From Clostridia bacterium (GTDB taxonomy: Bacteria > Bacillota > Clostridia > Oscillospirales > Butyricicoccaceae): a DNA stretch of 47,601 nt. Of this stretch, positions 25,172 through 27,933 are shown piece after piece (positions within the stretch are counted from its first letter, which is position 1; every line of letters starts with the position of its first letter). The notes below the pieces were generated by a model. The model worked only from the letters and a program-made list of their open reading frames with translations. It had not been told where the DNA came from and ran no database searches. The position numbers and the translations under genes were made by a program. The stretch lies in assembly GCA_017521295.1 (NCBI GenBank), contig JAFXDF010000030.1, positions 1 through 47,601 on the forward strand. Direction: 5' to 3'.

Positions 25172-25316
25172 ATTTCCCCGCAAAACCGGAAATGAATCAA
25201 AATGATATATAAATATATAGATTAGGCGCACAATTTTGGAGGTTTTTCCAAAAACTACCTGAAAAGAGCATTTCCCAATTTTCGCCAACGGCCTTTGACA
25301 GAATTTTCGATTTCCC
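25172..25316 (+). repeat. three NBS-type half-sites (ATTTCCC) upstream of noc
   Basis: ATTTCCC, the half-site of the Noc binding sequence ATTTCCCGGGAAAT, occurs at 25172-25178, 25270-25276 and 25310-25316. The first pairs with GGAAAT at 25188-25193 as a spaced inverted repeat. Noc autoregulation is a possible reading; no full NBS palindrome is present. Confidence 0.35.
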
Positions 25317-25353
25317 GATGGTATTCTGAAGAAAAAGAAGGGAAGTGGAAACA

Positions 25354-26166
25354 ATGGCATTGCCATGGCGACAGCAAACCAAACAACCTCAGGAGTTCCG
25401 CCGCATCCCCATCCGGCAGATCCGGAAAAATCCACATCAGCCCCGGAAGATCTTTGACCCCCAGGCCCTTCAAAGTCTGGCTGACAGCATCCGGCAATAC
25501 GGCATCATCACACCCCTCACTGTGCGGCAGGTGGGAGAGGACTTTGAGCTGGTGTCGGGGGAACGGCGTCTGCGGGCGGCCACCATTGCCGGGCTGTCGG
25601 TGGTGCCCTGTTACATCGTGTCGGTGGACGACCGGCAAAGCGCCCTCATGGCCCTGCTGGAAAATCTTCAGCGCAAGGACCTGGACTGCTTCGAGGAGGC
25701 CCTCTTTCTCCGGCGGCTGTGCTCGGAGTTTCATATGACCCAGCAGGAGGCCGCCCAGCGGGTGGGTAAGACCCAAAGTGCCGTAGCCAACAAAATGCGC
25801 CTGCTGCGGCTGTCTCCGGCTACCGTGGAGGTCATCCGAAGCTGCCGCCTCACCGAGCGCCACGCCCGGACCCTGCTGCAGCTGGAGGAGGAGGAGGCCC
25901 GCTTTACCGCCGCCGAGGAGATGGGCAAGCGACATATGACGGTGGCCCAGGCTGAGCAGTATGTGCAGCGGCTTCTGGAAGAAAAGCCCCGCCCCCGGCG
26001 GCAGGGCATGATCCGGGATGTGCGGCTGTTCTGCAACACAGTGGATCGGGCGGTCCATCTCATGCAGGAAAGCGGTCTCAAGGCCCGGATGGAAAAACGG
26101 CAGGAGGGGGAGGACCTGATTCTTACAGTATATGTACCCTCTGCCATGATTTCAAAAAAGTCATAA
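25354..26166 (+). CDS. noc: nucleoid occlusion protein Noc (ParB paralogue)
   Basis: Noc binds NBS sites and blocks septum formation over the chromosome. The 270-residue protein has the ParB CTP-binding domain with GERRLRAATIAG (about residue 69) and ENLQRKDLD, then the helix-turn-helix. At the four positions known to separate Noc from ParB specificity it has Gln141, Lys147, Arg152 and Arg169, three identical to and one conservative with the Noc pattern, while the ParB below has the ParB pattern. The C-terminal RRQGMIRDVRLFCNTVDRAV segment is also Noc-like. The N-terminus (MALPWRQQTKQ) before the ParB fold is shorter than in Bacillus, so the membrane-binding helix may be reduced. ATG 25354 is chosen; GTG 25345 is an alternative. 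Confidence 0.85.
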   Translation: MALPWRQQTKQPQEFRRIPIRQIRKNPHQPRKIFDPQALQSLADSIRQYGIITPLTVRQVGEDFELVSGERRLRAATIAGLSVVPCYIVSVDDRQSALMALLENLQRKDLDCFEEALFLRRLCSEFHMTQQEAAQRVGKTQSAVANKMRLLRLSPATVEVIRSCRLTERHARTLLQLEEEEARFTAAEEMGKRHMTVAQAEQYVQRLLEEKPRPRRQGMIRDVRLFCNTVDRAVHLMQESGLKARMEKRQEGEDLILTVYVPSAMISKKS

Positions 26167-26167
26167 A

Positions 26168-26183
26168 CGTTTCACGTGAAACA
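26168..26183. other. parS centromere site
   Basis: CGTTTCACGTGAAACA matches the 16-bp parS consensus TGTTTCACGTGAAACA at 15 of 16 positions, with a perfect palindromic core at 26169-26182. It starts 1 base after the noc stop, 125 bp upstream of parA, next to the genes whose product binds it. Its right arm overlaps the left arm of the noc terminator. Confidence 0.93.
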
Positions 26184-26208
26184 CCGCTCTGTTGGGCGGT
26201 GTTTTTAT
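26179..26208 (+). terminator. intrinsic terminator after noc, overlapping parS
   Basis: AAACACCGC and GCGGTGTTTTT form the stem with loop TCTGTTGG, ending in a T run (to about 26207). The AAACA of the left arm belongs to parS. Confidence 0.8.
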
Positions 26209-26218
26209 GTTGTGAATG

Positions 26219-26234
26219 GTTTTCCCGTGAAACA
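26219..26234. other. hybrid NBS/parS-like site upstream of parA
   Basis: GTTTTCCC joined to GTGAAACA. The right half equals the parS half-site exactly (GTGAAACA). The left half contains TTTCCC, the NBS half-site core, and matches parS less well (three mismatches in eight). It lies 6 bp upstream of the parA -35 element. Binding by either protein is not shown. Confidence 0.45.
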
Positions 26235-26239
26235 ATACC

Positions 26240-26268
26240 TTGCAAATCGACAAAAGCAAGTATATAAT
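26240..26268 (+). promoter_or_regulatory. promoter of parA-parB
   Basis: TTGCAA (26240-26245), exactly 17 bp, TATAAT (26263-26268), 41 bp upstream of the parA start. The hybrid site abuts its upstream edge, which suggests autoregulation by ParB or Noc. Confidence 0.75.
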
Positions 26269-26308: not shown

Positions 26309-27070
26309 GTGGCAAAGATCATCGCGGTGGCCAACCAGAAAGGCGGCGTGGGCAAGACCACTACCGCCGTGAACCTGGCCTGCTGCGTAGCGGCAAAGGG
26401 TTATAACGTGCTGCTGTGCGACTTTGACCCCCAGGGCAATGCCAGTTCGGGCGTGGGCGTCAATGCCCAGCCGGGAAAAAGCATCTATGACTGCATCATC
26501 GGCGGTGTGCCCGCAAGCGACTGCCTGGTGCGCACCAAATACTGCACCGCCCTGCCTGCCGACATCCGTCTGGCGGCGGCCGAGGTGGAACTGGCCGACC
26601 TGCCCCGGCGGGAGCGGCGGCTGAAAGAGGCGCTGGACAGTGTCAAAGACCAGTTTGACTATGTGTTCATCGACTGCCCCCCCAGTCTGGGCCAGCTGAC
26701 GGTGAACGCCCTCACCGCCTGCGACACCGTTCTGGTGCCCATGCAGTGTGAGTATTACGCGCTGGAGGGCCTTTCCCAGCTGGTCTCTTCCATCCGAATG
26801 GTCAAGCGGTCCTCCAACCCCCACATCGACATCGAGGGCATCGTCCTCACCATGTACGACAGCCGTACCAACCTGACCATTCAGGTGGCAGAGGAAGTCA
26901 AAAAGTATTTCGGCAGTAAAGTCTTTAAAACCGTCATCCCCCGGAACGTGCGCCTGTCCGAGGCGCCCAGTCACGGTATGCCCGTCATCGCCTATGACCG
27001 GCTTTCCCGGGGTGCCGTGGCCTACAGCGCCGTGGCGGAAGAATTCTTGAAACGAGGAGGGAATCGATAA
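26309..27070 (+). CDS. parA: chromosome partitioning ATPase ParA (Soj)
   Basis: ParA is the deviant Walker ATPase that, with ParB-parS, drives origin segregation and in Bacillus also controls DnaA. The 253-residue product (same length as Soj) begins MAKIIAVANQKGGVGKTTTA with the deviant Walker A KGGVGKTT at about 10-17, then DFDPQGNAS (switch) and FIDCPPSLG (Walker B). The GTG at 26309 is chosen because GAAAGGGG ends 8 bases upstream and the N-terminus then fits the family; an in-frame GTG at 26300 lies at the ribosome site. The stop overlaps the parB ATG by one base. Confidence 0.95.
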   Translation: MAKIIAVANQKGGVGKTTTAVNLACCVAAKGYNVLLCDFDPQGNASSGVGVNAQPGKSIYDCIIGGVPASDCLVRTKYCTALPADIRLAAAEVELADLPRRERRLKEALDSVKDQFDYVFIDCPPSLGQLTVNALTACDTVLVPMQCEYYALEGLSQLVSSIRMVKRSSNPHIDIEGIVLTMYDSRTNLTIQVAEEVKKYFGSKVFKTVIPRNVRLSEAPSHGMPVIAYDRLSRGAVAYSAVAEEFLKRGGNR

Positions 27071-27933
27071 TGGCAAAAGGAAAGGGCCTGGGCCGCGGTC
27101 TGGAGGCCATCTTCGCCGAGGAAGTTCCGGCAGCGCAGAACACTCCCGTGGGCATCCGTCTGTCAGATATCGAGCCCAACCCCCGTCAGCCCCGACAGGA
27201 CTTTGATCCCCTGGCTCTGGAAGAGTTGGCCCAGTCCATTCGGGAAAACGGTGTTATCACCCCCATCACCCTGCGCAAAACAGGGGATACCTATCAGATC
27301 ATCGCCGGCGAGCGGCGCTGGCGGGCCAGCCGTCTGGCAGGCCTCCACGAGATCCCGGCCATCGTGCTGGACGTGGATGAGGACGCCGCTTATGCTCTGG
27401 CACTGATCGAAAACCTCCAGCGGGAGGACCTGAACCCCATGGAAGAAGCCGAGGGTTACCGCCGGCTGACCCAGGAGTTGGGCCTCACCCAGGAGCAGGC
27501 CGCCCATCGGGTGGGCCGTTCCCGGCCCGCTGTGGCCAACGCCCTGCGGCTTCTGACCCTGCCCGGCTCGGTAGCATCTCTGCTCCGGGACAAGCAGCTG
27601 TCGGCCGGCCATGCCCGGGCGCTGCTGCCTTTGGAGAGAGAGGAGGTCATGCTGAAAGCTGCTCAAACCATTCTGGAGCAGCAGTTATCCGTTCGGCAGA
27701 CCGAAACGCTGGTCAAGCAGCTGCAGAAGCAGCCCGCCGACAAACCCGAAAAGACCCCCGACATCTATGTCCAGGATCTGGAACGGGCTATGGCATCCCT
27801 GACCGGCCACAAGATCACCATCAAACACGGTGAGAAAAAGGGCAAAATTACCATTGAATATTACGGAAACGAGGACCTGGAGGCCGTCTGTGAAGCGCTG
27901 AAGGGGATCCGCACCGAAAAAACCGCGGAATAA
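27070..27933 (+). CDS. parB: chromosome partitioning protein ParB (Spo0J)
   Basis: ParB loads at parS, uses CTP to slide and recruits SMC. The 287-residue protein has the ParA-stimulating N-terminus MAKGKGLGRGLEAIF, the CTP-binding motifs GERRWRA and ENLQREDLNP, and a helix-turn-helix. Specificity positions are Arg152, Ala158, Thr163 and Gly180, i.e. the ParB type with Arg and Gly at the key sites, in contrast to the Noc paralogue upstream. A C-terminal dimerisation region follows a Lys/Gln-rich linker. It is coupled to parA (TAATG) and followed 17 bases later by serS. Confidence 0.96.
   Translation: MAKGKGLGRGLEAIFAEEVPAAQNTPVGIRLSDIEPNPRQPRQDFDPLALEELAQSIRENGVITPITLRKTGDTYQIIAGERRWRASRLAGLHEIPAIVLDVDEDAAYALALIENLQREDLNPMEEAEGYRRLTQELGLTQEQAAHRVGRSRPAVANALRLLTLPGSVASLLRDKQLSAGHARALLPLEREEVMLKAAQTILEQQLSVRQTETLVKQLQKQPADKPEKTPDIYVQDLERAMASLTGHKITIKHGEKKGKITIEYYGNEDLEAVCEALKGIRTEKTAE

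Follow-up and report, generated by a model that had tools for sequence, protein, structure and literature searches.

The 16-bp element at positions 26219-26234 of the window, the 47,601-nucleotide stretch of DNA analysed here, raises the question of whether it is a parS site, a Noc-binding sequence (NBS) or a hybrid of the two, and which protein reads it. How paired DNA-binding specificities evolve has been studied with ParB and Noc as a model, on the DNA side mostly through designed sites.

An asymmetric parS-like site at the parA promoter

The element (no strand assigned) reads GTTTTCCCGTGAAACA and matches parS, TGTTTCACGTGAAACA, at 13/16 positions. Its promoter-proximal half, GTGAAACA, is an exact parS half, and its distal half, GTTTTCCC, has the NBS-type C at half-site position 6 and a T at position 1. 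An earlier note on this DNA had described a left arm of NBS type joined to an exact parS right arm, and this description holds in the letters, with TTTCCC as the left core. The element is not itself an NBS, which would carry TTTCCC in both halves with an A, or in this genome a T, at position 1.

Within three mismatches of parS, the window contains only this site and the one at 26168-26183, where 0.18 would be expected. The latter, parS 1 (CGTTTCACGTGAAACA; no strand assigned), is the 15/16 parS that the same note had placed 35 bp upstream. It is identical in the related genomes G007, G006 and G004, and its 3' half overlaps the start of the intrinsic terminator of noc (26178-26205, + strand), a layout that is also seen in G007. 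The genomic setting is that expected of parS: the site adjoins parAB, and the window contains noc-parA-parB as well as mnmG and mnmE. The parA promoter (TTGCAA-17-TATAAT, 26240-26268, + strand) has its -35 element at 26240-26245 and its -10 element at 26263-26268. The asymmetric site had been said to abut this -35; it does lie at the promoter, but its 3' end stops 5 bp short of the -35 and the two do not touch.

The Noc-type and ParB proteins of the locus

The gene upstream of the site (25354-26166, + strand; alternative GTG start at 25345) encodes a protein with Pfam ParB_N and HTH_ParB domains. It scores 259.8 bits against NCBIfam nucleoid_noc, below the curated cut-off of 315, and is therefore treated here as a Noc-type ParB paralogue rather than a curated Noc. 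Downstream are parA (26309-27070, + strand), coding for a ParA/Soj ATPase with Pfam matches to AAA_31 and CbiA, and parB (Spo0J; 27070-27933, + strand), with ParB_N, HTH_ParB and ParB_C. A Pfam match to ParB_C was found in ParB only, not in the Noc-type protein, and BLASTP gave no match between the C-terminal regions of the two.

Specificity residues were read by alignment to the four positions 173, 179, 184 and 201 of Jalal et al. 2020 (PMC7383237), in whose work Q173 pairs with A1 and R201 with C6. The Noc-type protein has Q141, K147, R152 and R169, in agreement with the Noc pattern Q-K-(K/R)-R that is present in nearly all family members examined, and ParB has the parS-type residues R-A-T-G. 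Judged by these residues, both proteins are ordinary members of their two specificity classes. The claim that a Noc and a ParB with distinct specificity residues flank the site is thus borne out, with the qualification that the former is a Noc-type paralogue.

The Noc-type protein begins MALPWRQQTKQPQEF (window 25345-25400), with only a short stretch ahead of ParB_N; in Bacillus subtilis Noc, a membrane helix occupies the region preceding this domain (PMC4331003). A Noc/ParB relative 41% identical to that of the window is encoded at L009 4001-4672, on a contig that is titled as a Methanobrevibacter MAG and is possibly a mis-binned bacterial contig.

The orthologous site in related genomes

The noc-parA gaps of members of the genus, the family and part of the order were compared, several of these genomes being incomplete drafts derived from metagenomes. 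The gap usually holds one to four parS sites. At the position 5 bp before the parA -35, G002 carries a perfect parS (TGTTTCACGTGAAACA, 16/16), and G004 and G006 carry TGTTTCCCGTGAAACA (15/16), a parS whose distal half has a single A6 to C substitution. In the window genome (G000), the 14-bp core TTTCCCGTGAAACA of the G004/G006 form is retained, and the half that carries C6 differs at two outer bases as well. The 5-bp spacing is common to all four genomes. In G007, the closest relative, the orthologous site is absent from the noc-parA gap.

A match of only 13/16 could in principle be a chance resemblance unrelated to parS. With about 0.0005 such sites expected within the gap, and with three species carrying orthologues of it at the same distance from the -35, this reading is refuted for practical purposes.

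In a tree of Noc, ParA and ParB, G000, G007, G006 and G004 form one clade with full support, and G002 falls in the sister clade. The simplest reading of this topology is that parS came first and C6 later. The -35 of parA would then have been preceded, at 5 bp, by a parS in the genus ancestor, and an A6 to C change in the distal half would have produced TGTTTCCCGTGAAACA in the lineage of the four genomes, where this form was presumably retained. Two outer bases of the same half would subsequently have drifted in the window genome, and the site would have been lost in G007.

All 16 bp are shared by G004 and G006, whose four-fold degenerate sites in noc and parA agree at only 59% and whose intergenic lengths differ. 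At that level of agreement, drift would leave the 16 bp identical with a probability of ~2e-4 and is an unlikely cause. From this comparison, at least three lineages have evidently inherited and retained the parS with one changed base. An unconserved left arm in close relatives had been named as evidence against the hybrid. The core TTTCCC is kept in G004 and G006, which argues that the arm is not random noise, but in G007 the arm has gone together with the rest of the site. This loss in the nearest relative indicates that the site is dispensable. As for the earlier suggestion of an evolutionary intermediate, it is fair as far as the letters go: they lead from parS in G002 through one C6 change in G004 and G006 to drift of the same arm in G000.

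The main rival to a functional site is a decaying relic, a former parS that is now too weak to matter and precedes an erasure like that in G007. The two additional changes in one half relative to G004 and G006 and the disappearance from the closest relative would fit this, as would the presence of an intact parS 1 and of another asymmetric site, near a DUF1508 gene (see below). We consider it unlikely, because the half adjacent to the promoter is exact and the 14-bp core is the same as in G004 and G006 at a four-fold identity of ~60-65%.

The altered half derives from parS

The NBS pattern has 34 near-matches in the window genome, compared with 1 for the reversed control, and several of these NBSs are conserved in relatives; by these counts, NBSs are real in the genus. 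Of 26 NBS halves in the genus, 22 have T or A at position 1. In the one-sided sites, this position is G in 9/12 C6 halves and in 10/12 A6 halves. This difference argues that the one-sided sites are parS with one altered base, and not an NBS that has acquired a parS arm. The window site is the exception, because its T1 makes the left half, TTTTCCC, equal to the local NBS halves (T1/C6), and this is the basis of the original hybrid observation. We interpret the window copy as an eroding member of the one-sided class, and the agreement of its distal half with the local NBS half as fortuitous.

Like the parS of chromosomal ParABS (Spo0J/ParB) systems, the site lies beside parAB at a par locus and is accompanied by a parS-type ParB, and its 16 bp approach the parS inverted repeat (13/16 in the window copy, 15/16 and 16/16 in orthologues); it differs in having C for A at position 6 of one half and, in the window copy, two further outer changes. 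With the NBS (core of GGATATTTCCCGGGAAATATCC; PMC7383237, PMC8429893), it shares C6 in one half and, in the window, a T1 such as many NBS halves of the clade have. Unlike the NBS, it has a pure parS half, relatives keep G1, and its place is that of a parS-derived site at the par promoter. No natural NBS/parS hybrid site was found in the literature searched. For the ParB-to-Noc specificity intermediates (Jalal et al. 2020, PMC7383237), transitional sites varying at positions 1 and 6 were designed, and those described here would be their natural, DNA-side equivalent. The natural sites are altered in one half only, however, and the proteins here carry the standard end-point residues.

One-sided position-6 variants recur

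One-sided changes at position 6 are also present elsewhere. In G001, CGTTTCACGGGAAACA occurs at a different position of the gap, where G005 carries CGTTTCACGTGAAACA and G008 carries TGTTTCATGTGAAACA (CATGTG); from its position, this change evidently arose independently. All four clade members (G000, G007, G006 and G004) have a one-sided site near a DUF1508 gene. In G000 (L001 9539-9929, G000 C38) and G007, it lies ~7 bp past the stop codon of the DUF1508 (YegP-like) gene. In G004 and G006, it has the reverse orientation and is embedded in the reading frame of a lipoprotein (VSRET); in G004, its contig also carries noc, at a distance of 35 kb. The differing place and orientation mean that the two pairs may have separate origins.

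A search for GTTTCACG-V-GAAAC, which reveals only the letters queried, returned 12 G (the C6 form), 1 A and 0 C in 87 family genomes, and 22 G, 4 A and 5 C in 394 order genomes. C is therefore favoured at position 6 in the order (22 versus 9 others; p 0.003 at a G share of 0.45, kinship being ignored). Enrichment across the phylum was set aside, as it is not clear beyond the order: in 398 genomes, with the window genome's own variants left out, 8 of 13 were C6 at position 6 (p 0.18).

Order-level C6 sites occur at the par loci of G332, G288, G378 and G350 and beside mnmE in G245. The 99% complete genome G332 has two identical copies of TGTTTCACGGGAAACA, 39 bp apart and directly upstream of parA (L104 2712-2766, G332 C8), with noc on another contig. 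No other parS-like site within two mismatches was found in G332. This genome seems to depend on the one-sided pair at par, while canonical sites lie close to parB in its congeners G190, G375 and G405. The par loci of G119 and G120 have one-sided position-6 changes to non-NBS bases. The sites of G120 are all one-sided and have G at position 6 (TGTTTCGCGTGAAACA upstream of parA; L121 2661-2716, G120 C18), and the ParB specificity residues are R-S-R-S, with Ser at the equivalent of residue 201, which reads position 6. This looks like co-evolution of reader and site. The use of C6 as such follows no clean rule in ParB: the equivalent of residue 184 is A, T, S, Q, K, H or N in genomes with C6 sites and A, S, G or N in those without.

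ParB is the probable reader of the site

The earlier note had suggested a site that can be read by either protein or by a mixed pair. ParB would take the right half and leave the left half to the Noc paralogue, or the two would compete for the whole site, linking segregation to nucleoid occlusion. The identity of the left half with the genome's own NBS halves, the presence of real, conserved NBSs, the two proteins encoded on either side and the preference for C at position 6 are all in keeping with such a dual site. The C6 halves of relatives, in contrast, carry the parS-type G1, G119 and G120 use other bases at position 6 of their par loci, G332 uses the variant with noc on another contig, and G007 has lost the whole site. 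In addition, B. subtilis Noc ignores parS and loads on NBS (PMC8429893). A ParB-Noc heterodimer is unsupported, as no ParB_C dimerisation domain for pairing with ParB is detectable in the Noc-type protein, and the C-terminal regions share no similarity by BLASTP. We regard the dual site as improbable.

Instead, the sequence at 26219-26234 is predicted to descend from parS and to serve, in its asymmetric form, as a ParB nucleation site at the parAB promoter, and this is the reading that we favour with some confidence; one-sided sites in general are most likely ParB nucleation or operator sites. A precedent is provided by Pseudomonas aeruginosa parS7-9, in which one arm is intact and the other is changed (CACGAG core), and to which ParB binds specifically, with reduced affinity; changes in the parS core weaken ParB binding in that species (PMC4368675). 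By analogy, ParB probably still reads the window site, weakly, with the unchanged promoter-proximal half holding the dimer. The degenerate P. aeruginosa sites (parS5-parS10, PMC4368675) are likewise natural parS variants, parS7-9 being changed in one arm including the core. Their substitutions affect other bases and their locations are spread over the chromosome, whereas the variant described here is orthologously conserved at the par promoter, and both parS-like sites of G332 are of this kind.

We infer that CTP-clamp loading of ParB would be weaker at the asymmetric site than at parS 1 and would add to the origin-proximal partition complex. ParB bound there may also damp parAB transcription, although ParB effects on adjacent genes are often absent, for example in B. 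subtilis (review PMC7022226). Weighing against ParB as the reader are the match of only 13/16, the absence from G007 and the favoured C at position 6, a preference that is not obviously explained by ParB tolerance alone. Conceivably, but with little likelihood, the one-sided C6 parS is a maintained class open to loading by ParB and the Noc paralogue alike, so that the latter tunes parAB expression and origin segregation; the choice of C over T or G would then be a trace of Noc's contribution.

For the window itself, the consequence is modest. The orthologous promoter nevertheless offers a natural graded series, from perfect parS through one-sided C6 and C6 with drift to loss. With this series, with G332 and with the G6 sites and Ser-containing ParB of G120, the half-site tolerance of CTP-clamp loading can be tested directly, as can co-evolution between reader and site.

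NBS-type half-sites (ATTTCCC) are also present upstream of noc, at window positions 25172-25185, 25270-25276 and 25309-25315. The half-site just downstream of the -35-like TTGACA of noc (~25297) is kept across most of the genus, and others nearby are kept in parts of the family. From this pattern, it is possible that Noc regulates itself through half-sites.
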